Shown piece by piece: positions 26,680-43,823 of a stretch of 64,000 nt of DNA. Both the position numbers and the translations under genes were made by a program. The notes below the pieces were generated by a model. The model made no database searches. It saw only the letters and a program-made list of their open reading frames with translations, and had not been told where the DNA came from. Position 1 is the stretch's first letter. Every line of letters starts with the position of its first letter. This stretch comes from Albidovulum aestuarii (GTDB lineage: Bacteria > Pseudomonadota > Alphaproteobacteria > Rhodobacterales > Rhodobacteraceae), in contig NZ_JASBQQ010000001.1 in assembly GCF_029961185.1 (NCBI RefSeq), positions 1 through 64,000 on the forward strand. The letters run 5' to 3'.

Positions 26680-26680
26680 G

Positions 26681-28333
26681 ATGGCGCGCCGGATCCGTTG
26701 TGCAATCTACACCCGGAAATCTTCCGAGGAAGGACTGGATCAGGACTTCAACTCGCTTGATGCCCAGCACGAGGCCTGTGCCGCCTATGTGACGAGCCAG
26801 AAGGCGGAAGGTTGGGTTCTAGTCCCGACCCGGTACGATGACGGCGGGCTGTCCGGGGGGACCATGGAGCGGCCTGCGCTGAAGCGCCTGCTCGCGGATA
26901 TCGAGGCGGGGCTCGTTGATCAGATTGTCGTCTACAAGATAGACCGACTGACCCGGTCGCTCTCCGACTTCGCGAAGATCGTCGACCGGCTCGATGCCGC
27001 CAGCGCCTCCTTCGTCTCTGTCACGCAGTCCTTCAACACCGCCACAAGCATGGGACGGCTGACGCTGAATATGCTCCTCAGCTTCGCGCAGTTCGAGCGC
27101 GAGGTGACGGCGGAACGGATCCGCGACAAGATCGCCGCCTCGAAGAAGAAGGGGCTCTGGATGGGCGGCACAGTGCCCTTCGGCTACCGGCCCGCCGGCC
27201 GCAGCCTGGAGATCGACGAGACTGAATCAATAATTATCCGCCATATCCATGACCTCTATCGCGATCTCGGCTCGGTCCGCGCAGCTGCCGAACGTGCGGA
27301 CGAACTTGGCTACAGAACGCGGTTGCGGTCGTTTGCTACAGGCGCCTCGAGCGGCGGAACCCCCTTCAGCCGTGGCCACATCTATCAGATCCTCACCAAT
27401 CCGCTCTATGCCGGCCGCATTCGCCACCGCGACAAGGTCTATGACGGTCAGCATCCTGCGATCATCCATCCAGCCGCATGGGACGCTTTGCAGAAACGTC
27501 TTGCCGCCGAAGCCGCCCGCAGCCGCGGACGGCCGAACGCGGCGGAACGCTCGCCGCTGGTCGGCAAGCTCTTCGATGAGACCGGAGATCGGTTGACCCC
27601 GAGTCATTCTCGGAAAAACGGCAAGCGTCTGCGCTACTACATCTCGCGCAGGCTAGTCACCGACCGGCGCGAGAAACATGCTGATGCTTGGCGGTTGCCG
27701 GCACGGCATCTCGAGACCGGCATTGCGCGAGTCCTCGGCGATCACCTGCGCAAACCCACCGTGGTGACCGATCTGGTCAAGGACATCACGGCCTCCGAGG
27801 TTCCCGGTCTACAGGCGACTCTTCGACAGGTCGCAAATGATTGTGACCCCGACGGTGCCGCCGACGTCTGGGCACCGCTGCTGCGCCGCGCCGATCTCGC
27901 GCAGGGTAGCATCCTCTTGCGGCTCGACCGGAAAGTCATGGCGGACCGGCTCGGCATCGCGCCGGATCGGATCGACAGTGCGGCCCGTCGGATTCCCGCA
28001 TCCTTCCAGATGCAGCGCCGAGGTGTCGAAGCCCGCATCATCCTAGGTGCCGCCGTGCCGCAGGTTGATCCGGTGCTGGCGAAGAACATCCTGACGGCGC
28101 AGAAATGGTATGCGGCCATCAAGGCCGGTGCCTCCTTCGGCGAACTTGCTACTCGAGAGAAAACCACCTCGAGCCGCATCCAGCAGATGATCGGTCTCGC
28201 CTTCCTCGCCCCAGATATTCTGGATCAGGTGGCAGCGGGTAGCCAGCCCGTTGCCTTCACATCGGAATGGTTCAAGCGAAGGCAGCTGCCCCTGGAATGG
28301 GATATGCAGCAGCGAGTTTTTGGCAGTCTCTGA
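26681..28333 (+). CDS. Large serine recombinase (copy 2)
   Basis: A 550-residue enzyme related along its whole length to the recombinase at 10256-11911. The resolvase domain shows IRCAIYTRKSSEEGLDQDFN with the catalytic serine near residue 12, VVYKIDRLTRSLSDFAKI and FAQFEREVTAERIRDK. The recombinase domain contains IYQILTNPLYAGRIRHR. It should carry out integration or excision of a mobile element. The TTCCCTG array found after copy 1 is absent after this copy, so the array is not a fixed part of the module. Confidence 0.93.
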   Translation: MARRIRCAIYTRKSSEEGLDQDFNSLDAQHEACAAYVTSQKAEGWVLVPTRYDDGGLSGGTMERPALKRLLADIEAGLVDQIVVYKIDRLTRSLSDFAKIVDRLDAASASFVSVTQSFNTATSMGRLTLNMLLSFAQFEREVTAERIRDKIAASKKKGLWMGGTVPFGYRPAGRSLEIDETESIIIRHIHDLYRDLGSVRAAAERADELGYRTRLRSFATGASSGGTPFSRGHIYQILTNPLYAGRIRHRDKVYDGQHPAIIHPAAWDALQKRLAAEAARSRGRPNAAERSPLVGKLFDETGDRLTPSHSRKNGKRLRYYISRRLVTDRREKHADAWRLPARHLETGIARVLGDHLRKPTVVTDLVKDITASEVPGLQATLRQVANDCDPDGAADVWAPLLRRADLAQGSILLRLDRKVMADRLGIAPDRIDSAARRIPASFQMQRRGVEARIILGAAVPQVDPVLAKNILTAQKWYAAIKAGASFGELATREKTTSSRIQQMIGLAFLAPDILDQVAAGSQPVAFTSEWFKRRQLPLEWDMQQRVFGSL

Positions 28334-28736: not shown

Positions 28737-28931
28737 ATGCAGCGTATGGCGGCGCGGGACGCAAAGAACAGCTTCGGCAGATTGATCGACACCGCTCGAG
28801 CTGAACCGGTGGCAATCGACAAGTACGGCCGGACAGTCGTAGTTGTTATCGCAATCGAGGAATACAATCGCCTTACGGCTCTCCAGGCACACGCCAAACC
28901 CGACGGTATGATTGGAGATGGCGGAAAATGA
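28737..28931 (+). CDS. Phd/YefM-like antitoxin protein without an adjacent toxin
   Basis: A 64-residue protein with AGGAGG at good spacing. It fits the Phd/YefM antitoxin family: AARDAKNSFGRLIDTARAEP, then the strand-turn VAIDKYGRTVVVVIAIEEYN. Such proteins bind DNA as dimers through this N-terminal part and neutralise a toxin through the C-terminus. Here no RelE or Doc toxin follows. Its stop codon overlaps the drmD start (ATGA at 28928-28931), which couples its translation to the DISARM helicase. A role as autoregulator of the DISARM operon is a reasonable inference. Confidence 0.82.
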   Translation: MQRMAARDAKNSFGRLIDTARAEPVAIDKYGRTVVVVIAIEEYNRLTALQAHAKPDGMIGDGGK

Positions 28932-31900
28932 AGAACGATTCCCCCAGTAATGGCATTGCGCAAGGCGATTTCGTTGAAGTTCGAGGCAAACAGTGGCTTG
29001 TCGAATCCTTGTTCGGCGAGGCGAGCGACCTTTCGACATTGGGTCTCTCATGCATCGCTGATGACGCACAAGGCGAACAGCTTGAGGTTATTTGGGATGC
29101 CGAGATCAATGCGAAGCTTCTTGACGATGATCGCTGGAGTGGCGTCGGGCATGGGCAGCCTGACAGTCCGGAAGTCTTGGCCGCACATATTCGGGCGATC
29201 CGCTGGAAGTCGGCGACTGCAGCAGACCGAGACCTTCTTCAGTCGCCTTTCCGGGCTGGGATCAGGCTTGATGCATACCAATTGCTACCACTCAGAAAGG
29301 CTCTTCGCCTGCCACGCGTCAATCTCCTCATTGCAGATGACGTTGGTCTCGGGAAAACGATCGAAGCCGGGCTGATTGCCAGAGAACTCTTGCTGCGTCG
29401 GCGGATAGATTTCATCGTTATCGCCGCGCCTCCTGCAATGACCATTCAATGGAAGGACGAACTGGAGGCAAAGTTCGGCTTGTCGTTCGAAATAATTGAC
29501 CGTGAACGAGTCGGTGACCTCAGGCGCACCAGAGGGTTTTCGGTCAACCCATGGACAACAGGTTCCCGGTTCATCATTTCGCATCGATTGATGACCGATG
29601 AAACCTACGCAGCTGGTTTGCGGGACGTCCTTGGTGAGTTTCGTGCGCGGGCGCTTCTAATCCTGGATGAAGCACACCATGCGGCCCCATCCGCTGGAAC
29701 CCGCTATGCTGTGTCGAGCCAGCTCACAAAGGCGGTCAGGGAACTCGGGGAACGCTTTGAGCACCGGCTGTTCCTAACGGCCACTCCGCACAACGGTCAC
29801 TCCAACAGCTTTTCATCTTTGCTCGAAATGCTGGATCCTCAGCGCTTCACGCGGGGTGTTGAAGTTCGTCCTAAAGATCTGGAACCAGTAATGGTTCGCC
29901 GCTTGAAATCCGATCTGCGCCGTCTCGGTGAAGCCTTCCCTGAGAGGGTCGTCGAGCCGATCATTCTCGACGGCTTGCCGGAAAGCACACCTGAACTTGA
30001 ACTGGCCCGTCAGCTTGGCGCTTATGGTGAGCTTCGAATGGCGCGGATTGCCAAATTGCCGAGTGGCAAGGCCGCGATCGCAAAACTGACATTCGTTGGG
30101 CTTCAGCAGCGCCTTCTATCTTCGGTGGCCGCGTTCCATCGCACTCTAAAAGCTCATCGGATGACCCTCCAAAAGATATCGGACGGCACTGAAGTTGCTC
30201 GGATTGAAAACTCAGCCGCCAGTTTTGTTCACTCCCCCTCTGCGGAAGAGAGCGCTGAACTGGGTCTCGAAGACCAGAGCGCTGAGCAGGCATTCGATGA
30301 AGATACGGAAGCAAGCGCGAGCGCGGCGTCGTCCGCAGGAGTGGTCGACGCGTCTCGTCAGGAGCTGATATCTGAGCTCGCCGCCGTGGATGAGATGCTG
30401 ACACTAACAGAGAGGCATTTGTCGCGACCTGACGCTCGTGTGGAGTGGCTGGTACGTTGGATCCGCGCAAACATGTTGGACGGCGAGACTTGGAACCGGC
30501 GACGTCTGATTATCTTCACAGAGTGGGAGGATACCAGACGTTGGCTGGAGCGACGTTTGCGAGAAGCCCTTTCCGGCACCGACCTGGCCGATGAACGGAT
30601 CGGTGTGTTCACAGGTGCGACGAGTTCTGATCGCCGGGAAGACGTAAAACGAGCTTTCAATGCAGATCCGGGCGCTGAGCCGTTGCGAATTCTCATTTGC
30701 ACGGACGCAGCGCGAGAAGGCATCAATCTTCAATCCCATTGCTCTGATCTGCTGCATTTTGACTTGCCCTGGAATCCGTCCAGACTTGAGCAGAGAAACG
30801 GCCGGATTGACCGGAAATTGCAGCCAGCCAAAACAGTCCTTTGCCGTTACTTTCGATACGCTCAACGCGAGACCGACATAGTTCTTGATGCGCTGGTCTG
30901 GAAAACTGAGACCATACGCGAAGAACTGGGTTCGGTTGGAAAGGTGATCGAAGACAAAATTGCGAAGCGATTGGCAGAAGGCGGCATCGGGAAAGGTCAG
31001 GGAGCCGCGCTCGCGCATGCAATAACTGAGGAAAATGATGCTGAAAGGCTTCAACGGGCGCGTTCAGAAATGGATGACGAGGAGCGAGCTCGGCATGATC
31101 GCCTTCTGAAAGAACAAGACGATCTGAGGAAAGTGCTAGAGCGTTCCCGAGAGCGAGTCGGCGTCAATGCAGACGACCTCAAGCGGGTCGCCTCGGCCGC
31201 ACTGTCGCGCGCAGGTCTGTCGCTTGACCAATCTCGCGGAGCGACTGTCGGCAAGACAGAGACATACCATCTCGACCCCAGCGATCCGGCGTTCTCGCGA
31301 GACGCCGGTTGGGACGATGCATTCGACGATCTACGCGTCAGACCTCGAAAACGGGGAGAGAGATTGGGAGATTGGCGACGGAACGCGCCTATACGCTCGA
31401 TCGCTTTCGAGCCACCAATTCTAGCTGATGGCAGAGACGCCGATAATGTTGTCCAGGTCCATCTTGAACACCGACTTGTACGTCGACTTCTATCGAGGTT
31501 CCTCAGCCAGGGATTCCAGTCAAATTTGTCCCGGCTATCGGTTATCGAAGGTCCCGGGGCCCAGCCAAGAGTTGTCCTAATGGGGCGTTTGGCCGTGTAC
31601 GGTTCCGGAGCGGCAAGACTCCATGAGGAGATCATTCCCGTTACAGCGATCTGGAGTGAGTCGGATCGAGAACGCCGACAACTGAGGGCTCTGGGAGAAA
31701 GCGGGGAAGAGAGGACGCTAAATCAACTTGAGGATGCGCTGCGCGATGCGCGCGCCGCACCCGCGTCCGCAGTCTCGAGGGTCAAAGAGCTCTACGCCAA
31801 AGACATTGCAGACTTGACGCCTGCATTCGAAAAAATCGCCGCTGAACGCCTGTCCGCGGTGAAGGCGCAGCTGGTCAAGCGCGGAGAAGACGAAGCCCGG

Positions 31901-32161
31901 TCACTCGAAAGCTTGCTAGATCAACAGCGTAAGAGGATCGCAAGAGCCGCAACAGATTTCAATCCGAACCAGCTCACTCTTGATCTTGTTCCGGACGAGC
32001 GACGCGAACGCGAAGCGGATCGACGGCACTGGGAAAGCCGTCTTTCGCGGCTCGAGCAAGAACTTCAGGATGAACCGCAACGCCTGCGGGAATCCTACGC
32101 GGTCCGAGCCCATCGCTTGGAGCCGGTCGGTCTCGTGTACCTTTGGCCAGTTTCGGGGTGA
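28928..32161 (+). CDS. drmD: DISARM class 1 helicase DrmD (SNF2-like)
   Basis: A 1077-residue SNF2-family helicase. The Walker A motif is in IADDVGLGKTIEAGLIAREL (about residue 138), the DEAH box in LILDEAHHA (about 245), then LTATPHNGH, and the second RecA domain with ICTDAAREGINLQ and PSRLEQRNGRIDR (about 590-630). The C-terminal third is rich in charged coiled-coil helices. Size, motif set and position before a large adenine methyltransferase match DrmD, the gene that defines class 1 DISARM. DISARM restricts incoming phage DNA and methylates host DNA. Confidence 0.9.
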   Translation: MKNDSPSNGIAQGDFVEVRGKQWLVESLFGEASDLSTLGLSCIADDAQGEQLEVIWDAEINAKLLDDDRWSGVGHGQPDSPEVLAAHIRAIRWKSATAADRDLLQSPFRAGIRLDAYQLLPLRKALRLPRVNLLIADDVGLGKTIEAGLIARELLLRRRIDFIVIAAPPAMTIQWKDELEAKFGLSFEIIDRERVGDLRRTRGFSVNPWTTGSRFIISHRLMTDETYAAGLRDVLGEFRARALLILDEAHHAAPSAGTRYAVSSQLTKAVRELGERFEHRLFLTATPHNGHSNSFSSLLEMLDPQRFTRGVEVRPKDLEPVMVRRLKSDLRRLGEAFPERVVEPIILDGLPESTPELELARQLGAYGELRMARIAKLPSGKAAIAKLTFVGLQQRLLSSVAAFHRTLKAHRMTLQKISDGTEVARIENSAASFVHSPSAEESAELGLEDQSAEQAFDEDTEASASAASSAGVVDASRQELISELAAVDEMLTLTERHLSRPDARVEWLVRWIRANMLDGETWNRRRLIIFTEWEDTRRWLERRLREALSGTDLADERIGVFTGATSSDRREDVKRAFNADPGAEPLRILICTDAAREGINLQSHCSDLLHFDLPWNPSRLEQRNGRIDRKLQPAKTVLCRYFRYAQRETDIVLDALVWKTETIREELGSVGKVIEDKIAKRLAEGGIGKGQGAALAHAITEENDAERLQRARSEMDDEERARHDRLLKEQDDLRKVLERSRERVGVNADDLKRVASAALSRAGLSLDQSRGATVGKTETYHLDPSDPAFSRDAGWDDAFDDLRVRPRKRGERLGDWRRNAPIRSIAFEPPILADGRDADNVVQVHLEHRLVRRLLSRFLSQGFQSNLSRLSVIEGPGAQPRVVLMGRLAVYGSGAARLHEEIIPVTAIWSESDRERRQLRALGESGEERTLNQLEDALRDARAAPASAVSRVKELYAKDIADLTPAFEKIAAERLSAVKAQLVKRGEDEARSLESLLDQQRKRIARAATDFNPNQLTLDLVPDERREREADRRHWESRLSRLEQELQDEPQRLRESYAVRAHRLEPVGLVYLWPVSG

Positions 32162-32166
32162 TTTAG

Positions 32167-35100
32167 ATGGTTTCCGAGATTAATCGCGACCCGGACCTCG
32201 AGTGGCTAGATCATATTCAGCCGGTTGGACTTGTCATTGCGCCCAGCGTTCTGAAAGAGTTGGGGTTAACTCCGCTGCATCAAAGCCCGATAGCCACAGG
32301 CGCTATCGCCGAGCTTTTGAACTCTGATAGCGACGGCCCGGCGATCCTCGACCCTTGGGCCTTCGCGGAACAAGTCCTGGGCTGGGAAGCTCGCCACACC
32401 GCCGGTACGGCAGATGGCCCGGAGATCCCGGATCAGCTGATCGTCAGGTTGCCGGAGCATTCGACCACGCTGTCTCCGCATTGGGCAGTGGCGGAACTAG
32501 GCGAAGCCGACCAACCTTGGCAGCTGCTCGTCCGCATCGAGGACGCCGGAATTGATCCTGACACGCGGTCTCAACTCGATGGGTGGGAGGCGACGCCTCA
32601 CCAGCGCTTTGAGCGCCTTCTACGTGACACCGGCGTCTTTGCCGGTGTCATGATCACCGACAAGGTAATCCGGCTTGTCTATGCCCCTCGTGGCGAGACT
32701 TCTGGTCATCTTTCCTTCCCGATCCGCCCTCTCGCGACAGTGGCCGGGCGTCCAATGCTCGCGGGCCTGAAGCTCGTCCTTGACCGCTTCCGTCTGTTCT
32801 CCGATGCCGATGAACGGCGACTTCCCGCGCTCTTGAAGAAAAGCCGCGACGCTCAAGCCTCGGTTTCCACAGAACTCGCAGGCCAGGTTCTCGGCGCTTT
32901 GCATGACCTCCTGCGTGGTCTGCACGCGGCGGACCCGGATCTGACGCGGGAACTAGCCCGCTCCCGTCCCGAGCACCTTTATGAGGGGCTTCTGACAGTC
33001 CTCATGCGGCTGGTGTTCATCCTCTATGCCGAGGACCGTGACCTGCTACCCTCCCGCTCGGATGGCCGCGCCAGATCGATCTACGAAACCAGCTATTCGG
33101 TCCGCGGACTCTTTGCCCGCCTCGCCGAGGAAGCTGCACTGAATCCAGACACGATGGATGAACGACGCGGCGGCTGGGGTCAGCTGCTGGCGCTGTTCCG
33201 GCTGATCCACGGGGGGCATCCGACCCACTTCGTCCAGGCGCGCGGCGGCAAGCTGTTCGATCCGGATGAGTTTCCGTTCCTCGAAGGTCGTAGCGATGTG
33301 GACGAGGATTCTCGCGTCCTTCAGGTCTCGGACGGTTGCATCCTGCGCATCCTCGAGGGGCTTATGACCCTGAAACTACGCGGCCAAGAGCGTGAACGCC
33401 TCTCCTACCGCACGCTCGATGTCGAACAGATCGGCTCCGTCTACGAGACCGTCATGGGCTTCACCGTCGAGGAAGCGCCATGTCGGGTGCTGGCGATCAA
33501 GGCAGGCAAGAACAACAAGACGCCCGTCTTCGTTGGCCTCGACGATCTTCTGAGCAAAAAGGGCAAGGATCGGATCAAGGACCTGAAAGAGAATGTCGGC
33601 CGATCCCTGACCGCCGCGCAAGCAAAGCCGATTGAAGCTGCCATAACGGTCGAGGATCTCGCCGCCGCGCTCGACAACATCGTCGATGAACGCGGTTCGC
33701 CCCGTCACGTGGTCGCGGCGGCCGGAACGCCAATTCTCCAGCCGACAGACGAACGCCGTCGCACCGGCAGTCACTACACACCGCGCAGCCTGACAGCGCC
33801 GATCGTAGCCCATGCGTTGGAGCCAGCGTTCGAACGACTGGGGCCGGACGCGACGCCCGAACAGGTTCTCGACCTCAAGGTCTGCGATCCGGCGATGGGG
33901 TCCGGCGCGTTCCTCGTCGAAGCCTGCCGTGCCATCGCCTCGCGTCTGGTCGATGCCTGGGCGCGCTGGCCGGATGCGAGGCCAAAGATTCCGGCTGATG
34001 AAGATGAGGAACTCCATGCGCGCCGCCTTGTCGCGCAGCGGTGTCTCTATGGCGTGGACCGAAACGCACGCGCGGTCGACCTGGCGCGGTTGTCGCTCTG
34101 GCTGGCCACGCTGGCAAAGGATCAAGAATTCACCTTCCTCGACCATGCGCTGAAATGCGGCGACAGCCTTGTGGGTCTGACGCCCGAACAGATCGCGGCT
34201 GCGAATTGGGATGCTTCGAAGCCGGGCCTGCCCCTGCTGAGACCGCTCGTGGCTGAAAGGGTGGCAGAGGCGGATCGCGCTCGTGCCGAAATCCGGTCTG
34301 CTCCTGACGACACGATGCGCGCAATCCAGGAAAAGCGTCACAAGCACGTGGAGACGCGTCTGTCGCCCGTCCGGCTGCTGGGCGATGCGGTGATCGCGGC
34401 CTTCTTCTCGGCCGATAAGGCCAAGGCGCGGGAGAAGGCACGGGCAGATGCGGAAAGCTGGTTTTCGGGCCGCCCGGCAAGGTGGGACATGCTGGGGGAT
34501 TCTGCGAATGCGCTGCGCAAAGGGGAGCGCGGTATTCCGCCGTTCCACTGGGCCATTGAGTTCCCTGAGGTGTTCAAGCGTGAGAATGGCGGGTTTGATG
34601 CGATTGTTGGCAACCCGCCGTTTATGGGCGGGCGCAATATCTCCGGAAGCCTTGGGAAAAACTATCTTGCTTGGCTCTTCGAAAACAACGCAGAAGCTGG
34701 AGGCCAGACAGACCTAGTCGCTTATTTCTTCAGAGCTGCCTTTAGGTTGCTTCGAGATGGTGGATCTCTTGGCCTAATTTCTACCAACACGATCTCTCAA
34801 GGCGACACTAGAAGGTCGGGTTTGACTTGGATCTGCAAGCATGGCGGGAACATATATAATGTGGTGAAAAGGTACACTTGGCCTGGAGAGGCAGCAGTTG
34901 TTGTAAGTATCGTTCATTTGGCAAAAAATAACGTGCCAAGAACCCGAAATTTAGACGGGCGTTCGGTAGAGAACATAACGTCTTACTTGGTCCACACAGG
35001 AACAAGTGATGAGCCTCAAAAGCTAGCCGAAAGCGTTGGAATTGCCTTCAAAGGTCAAGAACCATACGGGAAAGGTTTTCAGTTTGCGGATGGTGAGCCT

Positions 35101-36054
35101 GATGCTTCCTCAATTTCTGAGATGCACTCACTAATTGAGCGCGACCCAAAAAATGGAGAGAGGATTTTTCCATATATTGGTGGTGCTGAGGTCTTGGGAA
35201 GCCCAACTCATGCTTATTCGAGATATATCATTAGTTTCGACGAGATGACTGAGGTTGAAGCGAAGCGTTGGCCCGATCTATTCAAAATCTGCGAAGAAAA
35301 AGTTGCTTCCGAGCGTTCTAATAAGGCGAAGGAAGTTGCCGCTTGGCCATTTTGGACATTCTGGAGAACGCGCGCAGAAATGCGGTCGGCGAAGCGTGGA
35401 ATGGAACGAGTTTTGTTTCATCCCTTTACATCGGCACACCTCGCCTTCTCCTTTCTGCCCAGCGACTACATTGTTGCGTCACCGCACATTGTAATTGCAC
35501 TTGAAGGCTTCGGTTCGTTCGCGGTGCTCCAAGCGCGAATCCACGAAGTCTGGGCTAGATTTTTCTCGTCATCAATGAAGGATGACCTGCGTTACGCTCC
35601 TTCAGATTGTTTCCGTACATTTGCATTTCCGGAGGGCTTCAAGCTTTCAAGTACCCTCGAGAACTCAGGCCAAGCCTACTATGCCTTTCGAGCTGAACTG
35701 ATGATAAAGCGCGATGAAGGCCTCACGAAAACCTACAACCGTTTCCATGATCGAGGACAGAACGCCCCTGACATTGCCCGCCTGCGTGACCTCCGCGCTG
35801 AGATGGATGCCGCCGTTCTGCGCGCCTACGGGTGGGACGATCTCGCTGACCGGGCACAGCCGGAGTTCATCGAACAAGACGCCGACGAGGGCAAGCAGGC
35901 CAAGACCCGCTTCGACTGGCCGTCCGAGTTCAAGGACGAAGTCCTAGCCCGCCTCCTCGCCCTCAACGCCGAACGCGCCGCAGCCGAACGCGCCGCAGGC
36001 CTGACCGCGTCCGACGAAGATGATGACGAAGACGACGAAGGAGAAGCGGCATGA
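32167..36054 (+). CDS. drmMI: DISARM class 1 adenine methyltransferase DrmMI
   Basis: A 1295-residue Eco57I-like methyltransferase. SAM-binding motif I is in VCDPAMGSGAFLVEACRAIA (about residue 573) and the catalytic motif IV in FDAIVGNPPFMGG (about 814), the gamma-class order for N6-adenine methylation. The N-terminal 400 residues resemble the helical part of such large enzymes. The C-terminus ends in a strongly acidic tail with ASDEDDDEDDEGEAA. It starts six bases after drmD. In class 1 DISARM this enzyme marks host DNA. Codon usage becomes AT-richer in the target-recognition part (about 34700-35700), as is common for these variable domains. Confidence 0.92.
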   Translation: MVSEINRDPDLEWLDHIQPVGLVIAPSVLKELGLTPLHQSPIATGAIAELLNSDSDGPAILDPWAFAEQVLGWEARHTAGTADGPEIPDQLIVRLPEHSTTLSPHWAVAELGEADQPWQLLVRIEDAGIDPDTRSQLDGWEATPHQRFERLLRDTGVFAGVMITDKVIRLVYAPRGETSGHLSFPIRPLATVAGRPMLAGLKLVLDRFRLFSDADERRLPALLKKSRDAQASVSTELAGQVLGALHDLLRGLHAADPDLTRELARSRPEHLYEGLLTVLMRLVFILYAEDRDLLPSRSDGRARSIYETSYSVRGLFARLAEEAALNPDTMDERRGGWGQLLALFRLIHGGHPTHFVQARGGKLFDPDEFPFLEGRSDVDEDSRVLQVSDGCILRILEGLMTLKLRGQERERLSYRTLDVEQIGSVYETVMGFTVEEAPCRVLAIKAGKNNKTPVFVGLDDLLSKKGKDRIKDLKENVGRSLTAAQAKPIEAAITVEDLAAALDNIVDERGSPRHVVAAAGTPILQPTDERRRTGSHYTPRSLTAPIVAHALEPAFERLGPDATPEQVLDLKVCDPAMGSGAFLVEACRAIASRLVDAWARWPDARPKIPADEDEELHARRLVAQRCLYGVDRNARAVDLARLSLWLATLAKDQEFTFLDHALKCGDSLVGLTPEQIAAANWDASKPGLPLLRPLVAERVAEADRARAEIRSAPDDTMRAIQEKRHKHVETRLSPVRLLGDAVIAAFFSADKAKAREKARADAESWFSGRPARWDMLGDSANALRKGERGIPPFHWAIEFPEVFKRENGGFDAIVGNPPFMGGRNISGSLGKNYLAWLFENNAEAGGQTDLVAYFFRAAFRLLRDGGSLGLISTNTISQGDTRRSGLTWICKHGGNIYNVVKRYTWPGEAAVVVSIVHLAKNNVPRTRNLDGRSVENITSYLVHTGTSDEPQKLAESVGIAFKGQEPYGKGFQFADGEPDASSISEMHSLIERDPKNGERIFPYIGGAEVLGSPTHAYSRYIISFDEMTEVEAKRWPDLFKICEEKVASERSNKAKEVAAWPFWTFWRTRAEMRSAKRGMERVLFHPFTSAHLAFSFLPSDYIVASPHIVIALEGFGSFAVLQARIHEVWARFFSSSMKDDLRYAPSDCFRTFAFPEGFKLSSTLENSGQAYYAFRAELMIKRDEGLTKTYNRFHDRGQNAPDIARLRDLRAEMDAAVLRAYGWDDLADRAQPEFIEQDADEGKQAKTRFDWPSEFKDEVLARLLALNAERAAAERAAGLTASDEDDDEDDEGEAA

Positions 36055-36057
36055 TGG

Positions 36058-36723
36058 ATGGAGCACATGGGCGGTATCGCTGACGAGCACGTCGAATGGG
36101 CCATCGTAAACCGCTTGAAGGCGATGCTCGACGAACCGCCGCAGACGACGTTCAACGTAACCCAGACCTTTGCCCTGTTCAGCAGTGTTTTGCTCTGGAC
36201 CAAGAACCGTGCATGGGTGGCTGGCAACCATGGGCAGCGAGGCGAATGGGAGGACCCTGCGGACCATCGCGCCCACAATGTGCGGGAAGCCATGCGGGAC
36301 ACCCTGATAACGGACGATCCGTGGCGGCTCTCCCTCGCCGCTCCTCAGATAGTGCTGGTCGACCGAGCGGATGGAGGTGAAATCGATGACCGCAGGATCA
36401 ACGCCGACTTCGAGGCCATGACCGCCGAGAACTTCTTCAAGTGGCTGCGTGACGCGCTGGCGCATGGAGACGGACGGACGATCAGATCGATCCACAAGCA
36501 GTCTGCGCGAACCGGGAGAACGCTGCTTGCAGGATTCCGGGTGGAGTTCAACGCCGAGCGAGGCGCAGAACATAAGCTGACGCTGGACCTCTTCCATGAC
36601 GACATGCGCCGGATCGGCAGCGTCCTAGCCGACCTCTTCTGTTCATCTCTCAGCGGCGGCGATTGCTACTTCGAGGCGGAAGCAGGCACTGCGCGGATCG
36701 AAGAGGCGGATCGGGTCGCCTGA
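36058..36723 (+). CDS. HEPN-domain protein embedded in the DISARM locus, possible RNase
   Basis: A 221-residue protein starting four bases after drmMI. The segment FFKWLRDALAHGDGRTI contains R131 and H136 in an Rx4H spacing, the catalytic motif of HEPN ribonucleases, and the surrounding LRDALAHG fits the HEPN helix. The rest is mixed: LSLAAPQIVLVDRADGG before the motif and a strand-rich end (RVEFNAERGAEHKLTLDL). HEPN proteins often act as toxins or abortive-infection effectors. The neighbours downstream are an XRE-ImmA/IrrE protein and a PIN protein. It is not a standard DISARM component; assignment rests on the motif and helix pattern. Confidence 0.62.
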   Translation: MEHMGGIADEHVEWAIVNRLKAMLDEPPQTTFNVTQTFALFSSVLLWTKNRAWVAGNHGQRGEWEDPADHRAHNVREAMRDTLITDDPWRLSLAAPQIVLVDRADGGEIDDRRINADFEAMTAENFFKWLRDALAHGDGRTIRSIHKQSARTGRTLLAGFRVEFNAERGAEHKLTLDLFHDDMRRIGSVLADLFCSSLSGGDCYFEAEAGTARIEEADRVA

Positions 36724-36732
36724 TGGTTTGAT

Positions 36733-36766
36733 TGCAAGAAAATCTTGCATTTGTTGATTTGCAAGA
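36733..36766. promoter_or_regulatory. Operator candidate: three TGCAAGA half-sites before the XRE-ImmA gene
   Basis: TGCAAGA and its complement TCTTGCA form a palindrome at 36733-36739 and 36743-36749 with three bases between, and a third half-site lies at 36760-36766, overlapping an AT-rich possible -10 region. The next gene, starting at 36793, encodes an XRE regulator, so this is a natural autoregulation site. It would give the XRE-PIN-drmA-drmB part of the locus its own promoter. Confidence 0.65.
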
Positions 36767-36792
36767 TTATGTAGCGTCACGGAGGCACACCC

Positions 36793-37899
36793 ATGGCGAC
36801 ACAACTCATAGGCGCTCGGATCAAGGCCCTGCGCGAGGAGCGAAAGCTCTCGCAGGACGACCTGGCGCAACTATTCGGCTTCAAGGACCGGCAGACGGTG
36901 TCTGCCATCGAGACCGGTGAGCGCCGCGTCACGGCGGACGAGCTGATGCTGGCCGTCGAGAAGCTTGGAGCGACGCTCGAGTACTTCACCGACCCGTTCA
37001 TGCTGGTTGGTGAAGGCCGGTTTTCGTGGCGGCAAACCAATGTCAGTGCGGGTGTGCTGAATGGCTACGAGCGAAACGCCGGTCGCTGGATTGCCGCGTT
37101 CCGCGCCATCGCCCCACAGGTTGGTCGTGCCGCCCCACTGCTTCGCAGGTCACTGGGCCTGACCAAGCGTTCCAGCTTCGAGGATGCCATGGAAGCTGGA
37201 GAGCGGTTTGTCGCAGAGTTCGAGCTGGGCGCCGTCCCAGCCGCGCCGCTGGCTGAAGTGATGGAGCGCGAGCTTGGCACTCTAGTGCTGATGGTCGACG
37301 CGTTTGACGGAATCTCCGGCGCGGCCTGTCGGCTGCCAGAGCTCGACGTCGTGCTGATAAACCGCAAGGAGGTCGTCGGCCGTAGGCACTTCGACCTCGC
37401 TCATGAGCTGTTTCACATCCTCACATGGGATGCGATGCCCCCGGAACATTCCGAGGAGGCAAAGGAAACCGGCGGGAACCGCGTCGAGCAATTGGCGAAC
37501 AACTTTGCGTCTGCTGTTCTCATGCCGCAGGCCGTTCTCGACAGGTTTGGCGATTGGGCGAGCCTCGGGGACGGCGAACTGATCTCACAACTGAACGCCG
37601 CTGCAGAAGAGCTTCAGGTGACCGCATCTGCTCTTAAATGGCGCTTGGTGGCGCTCGGCGAACTCAAGCCTGCCCGTGCCAAAGCGCTGAATGATGCGGC
37701 GCTTCGAAACAATGGCCGCGATGTGGGCGATGCTGAGGTACCAGTTCTTTTTTCCAAGCCGTTTATGGAAGTGATCGGTCTTGCTGTTGACGAGGGGCGG
37801 GTTTCGACGCGCCGCGCTGCAGGGCTGCTCGATCAAACGGTTGAAGACCTCACCGATCTGTTTGTCGCTCACGGGGTCGAACCCCCTGCAGAGCTGTGA
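36793..37899 (+). CDS. XRE regulator fused to an ImmA/IrrE metallopeptidase
   Basis: A 368-residue protein. The N-terminal helix-turn-helix (residues about 5-60) reads IKALREERKLSQDDLAQLFG and QTVSAIETGERRVTADEL. Residues about 130-260 are an ImmA/IrrE zinc-peptidase domain with HELFH at residues 204-208 in FDLAHELFHILTW and the third-ligand region NRVEQLANNFASAVLMP. Such fusions sense stress or phage signals and relieve repression by proteolysis. The gene has palindromic TGCAAGA sites upstream and is followed after seven bases by a PIN-domain gene. This pairing of XRE-ImmA with a PIN toxin is a known toxin-antitoxin-like arrangement; here it sits inside DISARM. Confidence 0.88.
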   Translation: MATQLIGARIKALREERKLSQDDLAQLFGFKDRQTVSAIETGERRVTADELMLAVEKLGATLEYFTDPFMLVGEGRFSWRQTNVSAGVLNGYERNAGRWIAAFRAIAPQVGRAAPLLRRSLGLTKRSSFEDAMEAGERFVAEFELGAVPAAPLAEVMERELGTLVLMVDAFDGISGAACRLPELDVVLINRKEVVGRRHFDLAHELFHILTWDAMPPEHSEEAKETGGNRVEQLANNFASAVLMPQAVLDRFGDWASLGDGELISQLNAAAEELQVTASALKWRLVALGELKPARAKALNDAALRNNGRDVGDAEVPVLFSKPFMEVIGLAVDEGRVSTRRAAGLLDQTVEDLTDLFVAHGVEPPAEL

Positions 37900-37906
37900 G
37901 GCTGCC

Positions 37907-38413
37907 ATGGCGAAGCACCCGGGTCCTGTCCTTGTTGATACGAACGTCATTCTCGAGTCCTACCGGATCGGGGCGTGGCGTGCATTATCTGGCGGCTACT
38001 CGATTGAAACCGTCGAAGATTGTGTGACGGAAACTCAAACAGGCTTTCAGCGTCGGCGAACCGAAGAGCTGATCGATTCAGCAGCACTTCGGAATTCGTT
38101 GGCTGCCGTGCACGATGTGAGTGATCGCGAACGTGCGGAGGTTTTGCTCAGGGCATCTGGCATCAATCTGGACATCGGTGAGCACTCGCTTTGGGCGCAT
38201 GCTCTCATAAGAACTGACGGATGGGTTCTTTGTGGGCCGGACAAGGCGAGTCTCCGCTTTGGCGTTCGGTCGGGGTTTCGAGACCAGCTTTGCGCTTTGG
38301 AGCAGCTTCTCGATGCCGTTGGCTATCGCCCGAAGCAACCCCTGAAGACAGCGCATACGAGCAAATGGTTGGCCAAGACCCTGAGCGAACTCGTTATTTC
38401 AGAAGGGATTTAG
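37907..38413 (+). CDS. PIN-domain protein, probable toxin-type nuclease
   Basis: A 168-residue protein started at 37907, seven bases after the XRE-ImmA stop. PVLVDTNVILESYR supplies the first acidic residue of a PIN active site, SIETVEDCVTET the second region and VLCGPDKASLRFG the later aspartate. PIN proteins are metal-dependent ribonucleases, often VapC-like toxins. It is longer than a typical VapC (130-140) and fits the PIN partners of XRE-ImmA proteins. Its stop is followed within five bases by the drmA start, so it is expressed with DISARM. Confidence 0.75.
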   Translation: MAKHPGPVLVDTNVILESYRIGAWRALSGGYSIETVEDCVTETQTGFQRRRTEELIDSAALRNSLAAVHDVSDRERAEVLLRASGINLDIGEHSLWAHALIRTDGWVLCGPDKASLRFGVRSGFRDQLCALEQLLDAVGYRPKQPLKTAHTSKWLAKTLSELVISEGI

Positions 38414-38418
38414 TGGTC

Positions 38419-41400
38419 ATGACCGCCTCGGCAGATATCCGCTCAAGGATTGTTGAAATGTTTCGTCGCGACCTGATCGGTCCGGGGGACCAAGACACTG
38501 ATCTGGCGTTGGAACGGCTAAACGAAAGCCCCTCGCGCTGGTATCTGACTGGCTTTCTGGCGCCCGCTGAGGATCCGCTTGGGCTGGATGGCGAAGGCGG
38601 CGACAATGATCCATCCGCGCAGGAAGAGATGGAAATCGACGTCGAAGAAACTGACTCCGAGGGTGCCGGTGGCGCGGCCGGTGACAACGAGGAGCCTGAG
38701 GCCCCCAACGCTCGACGACGCTTCTTGCCGTCTTCGATTGGCCTGACAGTTTTGTTGCCGCCGGATGTAAAGGAAATCGAGGCAAAGATTTCGTGGGGCG
38801 ACTACAGGACTGAACCAGCTCTTCCTGAAAATGTACTTCTCCCGGAACCCCTTCCTGAGGAGTTTGATGAGGATGGTAAGCCCAAGCGCAACTCCAGGCC
38901 GATGGTGGACTGGGTTCGTACTCCAAAGGACCGGGTCGTTCAAATAACCGTGCGTGACGGTAGAGGCGAACCGATCTTGATCCCGGAAAGCGCTGCCGAG
39001 CAACGCAGAGGCGGTGGTTTGACGCTGGAGACCCACTCTAGAACCTTCAAGTACGATACCCCGGATGGAGGGCAGGAAGAGGTTCGGGCACTCACAGTCT
39101 TCCTCGTAAACCGACGAGCGACTGTCCACCGCTTCTATTCGGATGTGAGTTTCGTTTTTCAGGCGCGCCTCGAGCTCGCCCTCGACATGGGATTTCATCC
39201 CCGCCGAGACTTGTCTGGCACTCGTGCGGACGACTGGGATCTCAGGGTCGCCGACTTGCACTACCGAGATGTGAGTGAATGGGCAGTAGGGCGAAACGCT
39301 GCAGCAGGCTGGGACCAGGACGAAGATGCTCTTGGCACTGTGAAGCGCGTATGGACGAATCCGCTACCCACAGCGGAAGTTGAGCGCGTCGCCCCGAACG
39401 AAGATGACGAGATCAAGTCGCTCGTTTCGTTCGAAATGGAAGCTTTGGCCGAAGCGGCAAGTAAGGATGGAGACACCCTAAATGCCCTGATCGCCAAACT
39501 TCCTGAATTATATGGTGTTTGGATTGACGCAGAGCGTCAGAAACTAACGCCGCTCCCGAGTCAGCGAACGGAGACTGGCGAGCGTTTGGTATCGGAAATG
39601 GAGCAGGCGCGAGACCGGATTGCTGCTGGAATCGATCTGCTTCTGACGGATCCGACAGCTCGTTCCGCCTTTCGTTTCATGAACCTTGCTGTCGCCTCAG
39701 CTGCGCGACGCCGGAATGCCGGGCCCAGCGGCGATCCAAGTATGATGCAACCCCCGACATGGAGACCCTTCCAGCTTGCCTTTATCCTGCTCAATATCTC
39801 GGGCTTGGTACAGAAGACGCACCCAGACCGTGAGACAGCTGATCTCCTGTTCTTCCCGACGGGCGGTGGCAAAACCGAAGCGTACCTTGGTCTCGCCGCT
39901 CTCATTATTGCTCATCGACGCCTGACCGCTTCTGGCGTATTGGGTGCCGGCGTTTCAGTAATCATGCGCTATACTCTACGGCTGTTGACCTTGGACCAGT
40001 TGGCTCGAGCGGCGGGCGTCGTGTGCGCGCTTGAGCTGATGCGAAATGATCCCAAAAACGTAGACGAACGCGGACGACGTCTGCTTGGCGATTGGCCCAT
40101 CGAGATTGGACTGTGGGTGGGTTCTGATGCGTCGCCAAACAAACTTGGCGGCAAGGGAAAATCCGACGAAAAGACAGCAGTTGGACGAGTGAGGCGATAC
40201 CGAAATGGTCGTGACAAACGAGCTCCCGCGCCGCTGAAAGCCTGCCCTTGGTGTGGTACCGAATTCTCACCATCTTCATTTGCTTGTACGCCGAATGAGC
40301 ATGCCCCGACCAATCTTGAAATAAGATGCGCCAACACCAATTGCGAATTCAGCCGGGGGAGACCGCTTCCTGTTCTGACTGTCGACGAACCAATTTACCG
40401 ACGTCTCCCAGCGTTTTTGATTGCGACCGTCGACAAGTTCGCAGCGTTGCCTTGGGTCGGTGAGACTGGTGCTTTCTTCGGTCATGTTGACCGTTTTCGC
40501 GATGATCTTGGCTTCTTTGGTGCAGCTGAGCCTGGCGAGGGAAGCCCGCTGGGAAACGGATGGTCGCTAGCGCCACCGGATCTGATTATTCAGGACGAGT
40601 TGCACCTCATCTCAGGCCCATTGGGAACGGTGGCCGGATTGTACGAAGCAGCTATTGATCAACTCGCTAGCCGCAAGGTTGGCGACCATGTCATCCGGCC
40701 AAAGATTGTGGCGTCTACCGCAACGGTCCGCCGGGCCTCTGACCAAATCGAAGCACTCTTCGACAGAAGCACAACGAGCATCTTCCCGCCGCCAGGTCTT
40801 GATCGAACAGACAGTTTTTTCGCAAGGACGGTGCCCACAACCAAAGATCCGGCTCGTCTTTACATGGGCATAGCAGCCCAGGGAAGAGGACCGAAGCTGG
40901 TCTTCCTTCGTTCCTTGACGACCCTTCTGGCGGCGGCACAAGCGTTTCATGATGCAGAGGCTGGTTCTGGCGGCACTTTGAATCCCGCCGATCCCTATAT
41001 GACAGCCCTTTGCTACTTTAATGCTCTTCGCGAACTGGGCGGTGCACGCCGTATCGTTGAAGACGAGGTCCGGGATAGAGCTGGCCGCTATGGCACCCAG
41101 AGGTGTCGGATCGATCCTCCAGACTTGCCGTTCGCGGATCGCCAGATCAGGGAACCGATGGAACTGACGTCCCGCGAGTCAACTGACAAAGTAGCTTTGG
41201 CAAAGCAAAGGCTCGAAGCCATCTTTGGGCCGGGAACCGAAAGTGTAGATGTCGCTCTAGCCACGAACATGATCTCAGTCGGACTCGACATCACTCGTCT
41301 TGGGTTGATGATGGTCCAAGGTCAACCCAAAACGGCAGCCGAGTATATCCAGGCCACCAGTCGTGTTGGCCGCGATCCTGCCCGTCCCGGCTTGGTCGTT

Positions 41401-41961
41401 GCCGTCTTAAACCTCCACAAACCCAGAGACCGAATGCATTTCGAGCAATTCGGCCACTTCCATCGTACGTTCTATCGCTCCGTGGAGGCGACCAGCGTCA
41501 CGCCATGGGCCGCACGCGCCTTGGATCGGGCGTTGGCAGCAGTTGTGGTTGCAGCGGCACGCCACGTCGATCCCCTGCTGACTCCAGAAAATGCGGTTAC
41601 TGAACTGAAGAACTCGCCCCAGGTTCGCCAAGATGTGCGCGAAGCAATTGTAGCTAGGGCTCCAGCTCAAATGATCGCAGGTGGTCACGCCGCTCTCAGG
41701 GCCGCAATTGATGACATAATCGATGCGTGGATTTTAACTGGGGACGACCAAGCTGCTGGAGGCAATCAGTTCGCCTACGCCAAGAAGAAGAGCCCCCATC
41801 GACTTCTACATATGCCCTTGGAGCCGGATTGGGCCAATCTCGATGAACCCCATCGCAAGTTCGTCGCTGGCCGGTCGATGAGAGACGTCGAGTCGAGTGT
41901 CGCTCTAAAGGTCAGAGATCCGCACGGAAATACAATCGCAAACGCGGACGACCTGACATGA
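38419..41961 (+). CDS. drmA: DISARM helicase DrmA
   Basis: A 1180-residue helicase (ATG at 38419; a GTG at 38413 is also possible). After an acidic N-terminal region (EEMEIDVEETDSEGAG) the helicase core begins with LLFFPTGGGKTEAYLGLAAL (Walker A, about residue 478), IIQDELHLI as the DEAH-like box (about 725), KIVASTATVRRA, and ATNMISVGLDITRLGLMMVQ with YIQATSRVGRDPARPG. A Cys cluster near CPWCGTEF...CANTNCEF could bind zinc. Motifs, size and the overlapping drmB partner identify it as DrmA, which with DrmB forms the core DISARM complex that engages phage DNA ends. Confidence 0.92.
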   Translation: MTASADIRSRIVEMFRRDLIGPGDQDTDLALERLNESPSRWYLTGFLAPAEDPLGLDGEGGDNDPSAQEEMEIDVEETDSEGAGGAAGDNEEPEAPNARRRFLPSSIGLTVLLPPDVKEIEAKISWGDYRTEPALPENVLLPEPLPEEFDEDGKPKRNSRPMVDWVRTPKDRVVQITVRDGRGEPILIPESAAEQRRGGGLTLETHSRTFKYDTPDGGQEEVRALTVFLVNRRATVHRFYSDVSFVFQARLELALDMGFHPRRDLSGTRADDWDLRVADLHYRDVSEWAVGRNAAAGWDQDEDALGTVKRVWTNPLPTAEVERVAPNEDDEIKSLVSFEMEALAEAASKDGDTLNALIAKLPELYGVWIDAERQKLTPLPSQRTETGERLVSEMEQARDRIAAGIDLLLTDPTARSAFRFMNLAVASAARRRNAGPSGDPSMMQPPTWRPFQLAFILLNISGLVQKTHPDRETADLLFFPTGGGKTEAYLGLAALIIAHRRLTASGVLGAGVSVIMRYTLRLLTLDQLARAAGVVCALELMRNDPKNVDERGRRLLGDWPIEIGLWVGSDASPNKLGGKGKSDEKTAVGRVRRYRNGRDKRAPAPLKACPWCGTEFSPSSFACTPNEHAPTNLEIRCANTNCEFSRGRPLPVLTVDEPIYRRLPAFLIATVDKFAALPWVGETGAFFGHVDRFRDDLGFFGAAEPGEGSPLGNGWSLAPPDLIIQDELHLISGPLGTVAGLYEAAIDQLASRKVGDHVIRPKIVASTATVRRASDQIEALFDRSTTSIFPPPGLDRTDSFFARTVPTTKDPARLYMGIAAQGRGPKLVFLRSLTTLLAAAQAFHDAEAGSGGTLNPADPYMTALCYFNALRELGGARRIVEDEVRDRAGRYGTQRCRIDPPDLPFADRQIREPMELTSRESTDKVALAKQRLEAIFGPGTESVDVALATNMISVGLDITRLGLMMVQGQPKTAAEYIQATSRVGRDPARPGLVVAVLNLHKPRDRMHFEQFGHFHRTFYRSVEATSVTPWAARALDRALAAVVVAAARHVDPLLTPENAVTELKNSPQVRQDVREAIVARAPAQMIAGGHAALRAAIDDIIDAWILTGDDQAAGGNQFAYAKKKSPHRLLHMPLEPDWANLDEPHRKFVAGRSMRDVESSVALKVRDPHGNTIANADDLT

Positions 41962-43823
41962 CAAAGAATTCTCAGAGGCTTAGCCAACTCATCTCGACCT
42001 TTGGCCCCGGCTCGATGATCGATCTTCCAACACGCTCGGTGATCGTTGCAGGTCTCGAATGGTGGGATATGCGGGGCAATTCGTTTACGACAATTCCTGA
42101 GCCACGGCTTGCGATGCGCCTCGAGCAATTGTTAAAGGATCAGGGTCGGCTTGATCCGGAAGTCCAACTTTCGCTGCGGACGCCGCCTGTGTCGAACGAG
42201 CTCGGACACGGAGCTCCTCAAGGTGTGGCGGCACCAGTGTTTCCGACATGGTTTGTTTGTGAGCAGGGAGAGACGGGCAGTGGCCCGAACTCGAGCCTAC
42301 GAAGACGCCGCCTGGTTCGCTGGCAGGACCTCGACACCAAGGGTCGTCGAAAGTTCGTGTTCGATGATGGGCGCAAATCAGAGGTTACTCCTATTCGCTT
42401 CGTCTGTGCCTGCGAGAAAGGACACATGCAGGATATCGATTGGCGGTGGGTCGTACACGGCGCAGTACAGTGCCATGAGCCGATGTGGATCGAAGAGAAA
42501 GGAACAAGTGCTGATCCCGCTGACACCAGTGTGGTGTGCGGATGCGAGCGTAGACTATCTTTGCAAGATGCTTTCCAACCAGGAAGGCTCGGAAAATGTC
42601 GTGGTGAGCGACCTTGGCTGATGGATCGAGACCCTGAGGGCTGCGGGGACAATCTTAAGCTTCTTACCCGTACTGCAACCAACACATACTTTCCGCAAGT
42701 CTACACGGTGATTTCTCTTCCTGCAGAAGAAGACGAACTTTCAAGACTGGTTGATGAGCTTTCAGGAGACCTTGCCGGAGTTCAGACTATCGACGATGTG
42801 GCGCAGGCAAAGAAGTTCAACCCGAGGGTGTCAGCTTCCTTGGGAGCCTATTCTAACTCGGATATTTTTGATCGCCTCAAGCGACTGCGCGATCGCGCGA
42901 GAGTTGATGCTTCGAAATCGCCAAAGCTTTCTGAGTTTGATGTTTTTGCAAGTGGAACAGCAGAAATCGGGTCCAACAGTGCTTCGGCAAAGCTTTACGC
43001 CCAGACTTTGCCGCGTTCTGAATGGGAGGATACTTCGGTAGGAATAGACCTATCATCCATCAAGGGCTTGGTCGCGGTGCACCGCCTCCGTGAAGTATCG
43101 TGCCTATACGGATTCACCCGATTTGAAGCAGCGCCTACGAGCGCGGACGGTGATATCGAAGATATCCAGCTCGCGGTGCGTGGCGCACCAATATCTCGTC
43201 ACGCCGATTGGCTTCCTGCAATTGAGCAGTTTGGCGAGGGGCTGTTTATTCACTTCGACGAGAAAGCAGTGGCAGCGTGGTTGCAGGAACCAAAAGTGGC
43301 AGCGCGGCAGGAAGATCTCATCCACGGCTACGAACACTGGCAGAGGCGATTCTCCGGTGGAGCGCCAAGCTACCCGGGAACGGCCTACACCCTCCTTCAC
43401 AGCCTCTCACATGCACTGATGGCAGAAATCGCCTTGGACTGCGGATACCCCGCAAGTTCATTGAAAGAGAGGATTTACGCGCTTTCCGACTCGCGCACCG
43501 GCAATATCCCTGAAAGGTGCGGAGTGCTGATCTATACAGCGACCCCGGGCGCACAGGGGACTTTGGGTGGACTTGTTGGCGCCGGGTCGAGGTTCGCGCG
43601 TATTGTGGCGGGTGCGCTCGATCGACTAAAAGTCTGCTCGAATGACCCTGTTTGCGCTGACCACGAGCCTGATGGACATAGCGGCGACCGCGCCACCCAC
43701 GGCGCGGCGTGTCATGGTTGCCTCCTTATCGCGGAAACCAGTTGCGAAATGCGGAATCTCTTTCTGGACCGCAGTCTCCTGGTCCCAACAATGGGTGCAC
43801 ATGGATCGAGTTTCTTTGACTGA
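41958..43823 (+). CDS. drmB: DISARM protein DrmB (DUF1998)
   Basis: A 621-residue protein whose ATG overlaps the drmA stop (ATGA). It begins LSQLISTFGPGSMIDLPTRS, typical of DrmB, has an early zinc-knuckle region (VCACEKGHMQDIDW, VVCGCERRL), and the C-terminal DUF1998 domain: LHSLSHALMAEIALDCGYPA, ERCGVLIYTATPGAQGTLGG, and a cysteine cluster KVCSNDPVC...CHGCLLIAETSCE. DrmB partners DrmA in all DISARM types. No drmC phospholipase-D-type gene follows; after the stop there are about 400 gene-free bases and then a tRNA gene. Confidence 0.93.
   Translation: MTKNSQRLSQLISTFGPGSMIDLPTRSVIVAGLEWWDMRGNSFTTIPEPRLAMRLEQLLKDQGRLDPEVQLSLRTPPVSNELGHGAPQGVAAPVFPTWFVCEQGETGSGPNSSLRRRRLVRWQDLDTKGRRKFVFDDGRKSEVTPIRFVCACEKGHMQDIDWRWVVHGAVQCHEPMWIEEKGTSADPADTSVVCGCERRLSLQDAFQPGRLGKCRGERPWLMDRDPEGCGDNLKLLTRTATNTYFPQVYTVISLPAEEDELSRLVDELSGDLAGVQTIDDVAQAKKFNPRVSASLGAYSNSDIFDRLKRLRDRARVDASKSPKLSEFDVFASGTAEIGSNSASAKLYAQTLPRSEWEDTSVGIDLSSIKGLVAVHRLREVSCLYGFTRFEAAPTSADGDIEDIQLAVRGAPISRHADWLPAIEQFGEGLFIHFDEKAVAAWLQEPKVAARQEDLIHGYEHWQRRFSGGAPSYPGTAYTLLHSLSHALMAEIALDCGYPASSLKERIYALSDSRTGNIPERCGVLIYTATPGAQGTLGGLVGAGSRFARIVAGALDRLKVCSNDPVCADHEPDGHSGDRATHGAACHGCLLIAETSCEMRNLFLDRSLLVPTMGAHGSSFFD

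Follow-up and report, generated by a model that had tools for sequence, protein, structure and literature searches.

A stretch of 64,000 nucleotides (nt) from Albidovulum aestuarii (contig NZ_JASBQQ010000001.1, positions 1 to 64,000; the window) contains a class 1 DISARM locus in which drmD, drmMI, drmA and drmB are all present in order, as assigned with PADLOC and NCBIfam profiles. Three consecutive plus-strand open reading frames (ORFs) sit between drmMI and drmA inside DISARM, as an earlier note made from the sequence alone had described. They encode a HEPN-like protein, a fusion of an XRE repressor with an ImmA metallopeptidase (XRE-ImmA) and a PIN-like protein. XRE-ImmA and PIN constitute a conserved pair that resembles RosmerTA and that occurs with and without DISARM. 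The pair is preceded by a conserved putative operator, and the HEPN-like gene lies on the far side of it. The features of the locus are listed below.

28928..32161, plus strand: drmD, the SNF2-like helicase of class 1 DISARM (NCBIfam NF038317, 1012 bits, cut-off 610).
32167..36054, plus strand: drmMI, adenine methyltransferase of MmeI/Eco57I type (PADLOC DrmMI PDLC02643, 1234 bits; Pfam Eco57I and MmeI_Mtase).
36067..36723, plus strand: HEPN-like protein of 218 residues with R128-x4-H133 (common start of the homologues; invariant residues).
36732..36776, plus strand: putative operator/promoter of the XRE-ImmA unit (repeats, and a motif in the upstream regions of relatives; promoter by eye).
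36793..37899, plus strand: XRE-ImmA of 368 residues, HTH_3 plus Peptidase_M78 with HELFH, RmrA-like (Pfam; PADLOC).
37907..38413, plus strand: PIN-like protein of 168 residues with D11/E42/E92/D112 (63-row alignment).
38419..41961, plus strand: drmA helicase (NF038325, 1108 bits, cut-off 950; start set by homologues).
41958..43823, plus strand: drmB (DUF1998/MZB), overlapping drmA by 4 nt (NF038324, 529 bits, cut-off 240).

Translation starts were assigned from homologues. The drmA gene starts at ATG 38419 within the ORF 38221-41961, the PIN gene at ATG 37907 and not at TTG 37781 (homologues begin MA[KR]), and the HEPN-like gene at Met 36067 (MGGI...; homologues begin MG(G/Q)I). With this last start, the residues that the earlier note had numbered R131-H136 become R128-H133; the motif and its conservation stood and the numbering did not. 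The ratio of non-synonymous to synonymous substitution rates (dN/dS) was 0.05-0.12 for the HEPN-like protein, XRE-ImmA, PIN and DrmB in the 18 of 21 pairs with a computable dS, and the genes are under purifying selection. The drmC gene, which encodes a PLD protein, is a core gene of DISARM; no PLD family was matched by the five reverse-strand ORFs behind drmB, which were the ORFs covered by the search.

The repressor fused to a HELFH metallopeptidase that the earlier note had described was borne out by Pfam matches to HTH_3 and Peptidase_M78, and the HE-x-x-H motif was kept in the best matches of 111 of 115 XRE-ImmA relatives, with 55-residue fragments accounting for two of the four misses. 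The best PADLOC matches of the protein were RmrA (2e-17, a model with no curated cut-off), capP (9.8e-15) and capH (3.8e-6). The association with PIN was followed in 119 PIN loci (given here by L numbers) that comprised 80 kept of 127 confirmed loci on genome contigs, 33 on viral contigs, five on plasmids and, from a class genome, L004, which coincides with L021. The loci on genome and viral contigs were found with a profile built from seven PIN relatives. An XRE-ImmA match accompanied PIN in 115 of the 119, spanning DISARM, non-DISARM and viral-collection loci, and in the four loci without one (L048, L115-L117) PIN lay <300 nt from the locus start. The two genes were on opposite strands in L107, and where PIN, XRE-ImmA and DrmA were all present (34 loci) 6-18 nt separated the XRE stop from the PIN match.

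At least 36 of 121 loci (the 119 PIN loci plus L010 and L127) encoded any Drm protein, a lower bound because some contigs, for example L024, L053 and L086, stop soon after PIN. The pair was present also outside DISARM, on plasmids and viral-collection contigs; phage records gave no XRE-ImmA match at 1e-20. In L021 the pair lies next to a Dsr2 gene and to genes of mad8/HerA-like and RecD-like type; its neighbors elsewhere include mad3-like genes (L057), a type I restriction subunit (L078) and DruG (L085). No family was assigned to eight of the 19 neighboring proteins scanned (limits 1e-5 and 1e-20). Residence beside type I restriction-modification (RM), Druantia and MADS-like genes suggests a portable controller. 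In an XRE-ImmA tree of 86 rows, from which short rows, rows containing stops, L004, L023, L081-L084 and L098-L123 (L103, L112 and L113 being kept) were left out, the DISARM-embedded rows fell into one 64-row set (100/99). The same set held 34 rows without Drm hits, a class that takes in short contigs, and 32 of these made up one nested clade (100/98). With midpoint rooting, the tree suggests that DISARM captured the gene once and that it later escaped again; other roots are possible.

The acidic residues of PIN were nearly invariant in an alignment of 63 rows, made after the removal of five relatives whose PIN genes have in-frame stops: D11 was present in 62 rows (one gap), E42 in 63, E92 in 62 and D112 in 63. 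The loss of the Rx4H or PIN acidic residues in homologues, which the earlier note had named as telling against it, was not seen, the residues being kept in 10 of 10 HEPN-like and at least 62 of 63 PIN proteins. The Pfam PIN family (PF01850) matched two of the 63 PIN members at E 0.01 with a best E of 0.0012; neither was the protein of the window, which had no Pfam match. The five relatives with in-frame stops in PIN (L024, L035, L053, L064 and L080) each had the gene beside XRE-ImmA. Retention of the regulator with loss of PIN would fit PIN being the costly part. In-frame PIN stops beside a kept XRE-ImmA were noted in L081-L084 as well. The view in the earlier note that XRE-ImmA is a repressor of the stress type is supported, with PIN its likely RNase partner.

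Upstream of XRE-ImmA, a palindrome (TGCAAGA-AAA-TCTTGCA, 36733-36749) is followed by a third half-site, TTGCAAGA, at 36759-36766, and a promoter picked by eye overlaps the half-sites (-35 TTGCAT at 36745-36750, 17 nt, -10 TATGTA at 36768-36773). A motif pattern consisting of the middle and right half-sites was sought in the upstream regions of XRE-ImmA and was found in 69 of 86 non-redundant loci (112 before near-copies were removed), namely 25 of 27 DISARM, 34 of 46 other bacterial and 10 of 13 viral loci. Shuffled sequences gave a mean of 0.29 and a maximum of 2, and random 130-mers from the same loci gave 20 of 3000. The motif was kept in viral relatives with XRE-ImmA proteins 40-43% identical (52% in L091), its exact form occurs only once in the 4.24-Mb host genome, at this site, and it was absent from the 300 nt preceding drmA in five tested module-free loci. 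The region 36732-36776 is a conserved switch, a putative operator, that belongs to the XRE-ImmA/PIN pair itself. A small divergent DUF2188 gene lies directly upstream of the XRE gene in L005, L006 and L010, where it is annotated, and in L014, where it was seen by eye, an arrangement that would suit an operator region acting as a bidirectional promoter.

The spacing between the PIN stop and the drmA start was measured in loci with an intact PIN gene and a drmA start, five decayed and mutually similar Mesorhizobium loci (L080-L084) being left out. A 4-nt overlap was present in 18 of the 29 DISARM loci, a gap of 2-5 nt in six and a gap of 23-56 nt in five; in the window drmA starts 5 nt past the PIN stop. 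The overlap or adjacency suggests that the pair is placed for translation in step with drmA, and XRE-ImmA-PIN-drmA-drmB reads as one unit, apart from drmD-drmMI. The earlier note had proposed that the module fires when DISARM fails. The adjoining and often overlapping genes suggest joint induction and not a fallback; firing on DISARM failure is possible and is not favored. Protein distances were correlated with those of DrmB (Spearman), yielding 0.81 for XRE-ImmA (28 loci), 0.78 for PIN (29 loci) and 0.80 for the HEPN-like protein (eight loci). As the distances follow DrmB, the pair probably has been long resident in this DISARM lineage, with some exchange.

The HEPN-like gene is located 12 nt behind drmMI and upstream of the XRE-ImmA switch. 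It was found in eight of the 27 loci that had matches to both drmMI and XRE-ImmA (the window, L011, L012, L013, L015, L016, L037 and L058) and was not found in the other 19 DISARM loci of this set; in other loci a PLD protein, DUF2188 or unrelated genes took its place. Residues R128 and H133 and an HGDGR block were invariant in 10 of 10 aligned HEPN-like proteins, one of them from a type I RM locus, with identities down to 33%, and of the R-x4-H pairs in these proteins R128-H133 alone was common to all. A lone R-x4-H is uninformative, as such a pair turned up in 2724 of 5000 shuffled versions of the protein, and the motif by itself was dropped as evidence for HEPN. The protein matched no family in Pfam, PADLOC, NCBIfam or PHROGs; nine members gave one weak Pfam match (TPR_2, E 1.5), and the sole match among PDB sequences was a designed protein (E 0.42). 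Alignment with hhalign to DUF4145 relatives placed the motif H on H with R out of register at a probability of 0.2%, no better than two controls (0.15% and 0.47%), and PF18736 was matched in none of 61 genomes of relatives, nor by any control, which makes this search uninformative.

Relatives of the HEPN-like protein were rare. Among 101 relatives the single match was the window's own; among 385 class genomes at E 0.01 the window's own was the only real one of three, L129 resembling ATP synthase by eye and L130 being a stop-ridden fragment. A search of 398 phylum genomes gave four matches; the window's own and L186 were real, and L187 and L129 were discarded as not real. L186 carries the same HEPN-like protein as L037. 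One match was obtained among 72,556 plasmid records. In the Salipiger plasmid relative (L010), RNAVAH replaces RDALAH, and the gene has an annotated restriction endonuclease on one side and, past one small gene, a type I restriction endonuclease on the other. L010 is the one HEPN relative outside DISARM, in a type I RM locus with the present pair not adjoining. At L010:13766-15348, ~7 kb from the HEPN gene, an XRE-family gene is located beside a hypothetical ORF that is PIN-like by eye; this XRE protein gave no match to XRE-ImmA of the window at 1e-5. The HEPN-like gene looks like an optional occupant of the drmMI-drmA slot and probably specifies a second RNase effector. The conserved residues and a dN/dS of ~0.1 fit an RM-associated RNase effector that would be a candidate HEPN only.

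The reading that we consider reasonably probable is that the drmAB half of this class 1 DISARM has become inducible through the capture of a RosmerTA/CapHP-like cassette of regulator and RNase, with the HEPN-like gene as optional cargo. A RosmerTA-like XRE-ImmA and PIN pair would have been captured at the drmMI-drmA junction together with its own operator-promoter, so that the locus would now comprise two transcription units. The first, drmD-drmMI with or without the HEPN-like gene, is expected to be always on and to keep self DNA methylated, and the second, XRE-ImmA-PIN-drmA-drmB, would be repressed by XRE-ImmA. Infection or DNA damage would provide a signal, plausibly single-stranded DNA (ssDNA) as for the peptidases CapP (PMC13373217) and PprI (PMC10904395), upon which proteolysis by the ImmA domain would disable the repressor portion. 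PIN and DrmAB then would rise together, with PIN freed to cut RNA and potentially toxic, as methylation from the upstream unit stayed constant. Control of the HEPN-like product might come from the upstream unit or from the proteins of DISARM.

A broader version of this proposal is offered tentatively, and is less probable than not: the junction would be a cargo slot, the cassette would divide DISARM so that its modification half is constitutive and its attack half inducible, PIN, produced in step with DrmA, would be a working RNase arm of this DISARM subtype, and the HEPN-like protein would be an optional second RNase arm from a new HEPN family. To our knowledge, the silencing and switching on of DISARM have been little studied. 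The subtype offers a concrete switch, one operator and one repressor-protease, between the methylase and helicase halves, and suggests that toxin-antitoxin pairs can be rewired to control entire defense systems. The Rx4H family went unrecognized by the libraries of profiles that were searched and, should the HEPN fold hold, would be a further HEPN clade.

Several observations weigh against the inducible-cassette proposal. A consensus promoter scan gave no promoter upstream of XRE-ImmA and called the palindrome terminator-like, 17 of 86 XRE-ImmA upstream regions were without the motif, and 69 of 86 measures conservation and not discovery because the pattern was composed after the sequences had been viewed. 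Transcription from drmD could read through into drmAB. DrmA (0.97), DrmD (0.96) and DrmMI (0.91) track DrmB tighter than do XRE-ImmA and PIN. The PIN ORF (37781-38410) matched no PADLOC family at E 0.01 and thus no RmrT model, which is a weak test because RosmerTA toxins are described as diverse (PMC10440598). The HEPN fold of the Rx4H protein is putative.

Nor is the pair general among DISARM loci. It was present in three of ten inspected plasmid DISARM loci (L005, L006 and L007, already found through PIN), the ten being mostly the best ranked and not a random sample of 52 plasmid records with DrmB. DrmA was matched in nine of 385 class genomes and PIN in two, the window's own genome alone being in both sets, and the pair was in none of eight fetched regions from seven of the other eight DrmA genomes, three of these regions having DrmD and DrmMI matches. 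As DISARM exists without it, the pair is a subtype trait. In the module-free class 1 loci L131, L133 and L136 drmMI overlaps drmA by 4 nt, and in L132, L134, L135 and L137 other genes are present in the junction. Slot ORFs of ~270-320 residues with a stretch like GFDGARNRFL..FPNGF were seen by eye in the module-carrying loci L022, L040 and L062, and the slot protein of L132, a module-free DISARM, has a similar start, also by eye. By these similarities, the protein may be another recurrent cargo of the junction.

The earlier note had envisaged all three genes as one back-up suicide layer, triggered by ImmA when DISARM fails. The genes do adjoin, HEPN-like distances track those of XRE-ImmA (0.80, eight loci), and RM complexes that hold an RNase have a precedent in PrrC (PMC3710099). 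PIN also was present in eight of eight DISARM loci with the HEPN-like gene, XRE-ImmA and drmMI, but this link is biased because all carriers except the window, seven of the eight, were found through PIN. Two loci were found instead through the HEPN-like gene: in L186 XRE-ImmA follows it, and in L127 the operator and the first XRE-ImmA codons do. Against these points, the HEPN-like gene lies upstream of the operator, was not found in the 19 loci noted above, and has its sole relative outside DISARM in L010. Gene distribution and operator position therefore disfavor a single module in which ImmA triggers both RNases, and we consider it improbable, with the pairing of XRE-ImmA and PIN surviving from the earlier scheme and the inclusion of the HEPN-like gene and the fallback timing not. 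The L127 locus is a viral-collection contig with drmMI and the HEPN-like gene in which, in the stretch 6600-6900, a deletion joins the first XRE-ImmA codons to mid-drmA; it is a decayed copy of the locus.

XRE-ImmA alternatively might be a pure transcriptional controller, a CapH+CapP-like DNA-damage switch for drmAB, with PIN a non-toxic passenger or helper. The capP and capH matches fall on the same XRE-ImmA protein, PprI is activated by ssDNA, CapH+CapP is named as regulating immune operons, DISARM among them (PMC13373217), and PIN has in-frame stops in the five relatives listed earlier. However, PIN accompanies XRE-ImmA in DISARM and other loci with its acidic residues kept and a dN/dS of ~0.1, and pairs outside DISARM have no drmAB to control; this explanation is as improbable as the preceding one. 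A selfish addiction cassette parked in DISARM and functionally unlinked to it, as might be suggested by pairs without DISARM on plasmids and viral-collection contigs and by the 32-row clade nested in the DISARM-embedded XRE-ImmA lineage, is more improbable still in view of distances that follow DrmB over 28-29 loci, the fixed gene order and the recurring PIN-drmA overlap.

The inducible-cassette proposal combines elements of known systems. RosmerTA likewise has an XRE-ImmA antitoxin-protease beside a variable toxin, and PIN-like partners of ImmA antitoxins are reported (PMC10440598); here the toxin fits no PADLOC model and the pair sits in a DISARM operon, upstream of drmA, with a conserved operator. 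The COG2856-Xre/PIN domain pair had been assigned by prediction to a toxin-antitoxin system (Makarova 2009; PMC2701414), with neither a DISARM context nor the operator in the text consulted. CapH+CapP shares a helix-turn-helix repressor and an ImmA-type peptidase ahead of immune genes, and operons including DISARM are controlled by CapH+CapP and CapW according to an introduction (PMC13373217). However, CapH and CapP are two separate proteins whereas a single fused ORF of 368 residues is present here, PIN lies between the controller and drmAB, and the insertion is mid-system and not before it. VapKSC also joins a DNA-damage controller and a PIN RNase to anti-phage defense, but is controlled by Kinase/STAS and is described as stand-alone operons (PMC13373217). 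Class 1 DISARM shares drmD, drmMI, drmA and drmB; in this locus the junction is filled by the three genes, with no drmC among the tested ORFs behind drmB.

HEPN genes in RM loci were proposed as RNase effectors in 2013 (PMC3710099). PrrC, pEK499_p136 and the BREX auxiliary HEPN and PIN proteins share with the present protein an Rx4H protein in a restriction-type locus, whereas the protein here matches no HEPN model used and is a stand-alone ORF with no ATPase fusion. Both HEPN and PIN RNases are listed among BREX back-up effectors, their occurrence in the same locus not being in the text consulted (PMC12839542); calling two RNase types in one defense locus unusual, as in the earlier note, was overstated. 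Term searches of the accessible text of a 2025 YprA helicase preprint (PMC12458937) and a 2022 DrmAB structure paper (PMC9142583) gave no such module. A literature search with thin coverage of subscription journals found no paper describing the XRE-ImmA/PIN pair between drmMI and drmA.

Just upstream of DISARM in the window, a large serine recombinase (26636-28333; Pfam Resolvase and Recombinase) scored 115 bits with the CcrB model, far below its cut-off of 900, and is accompanied by a DUF2924 gene (26185-26679). The two genes perhaps are the integration module of an island. A recombinase-family gene also is present behind DISARM in L005.

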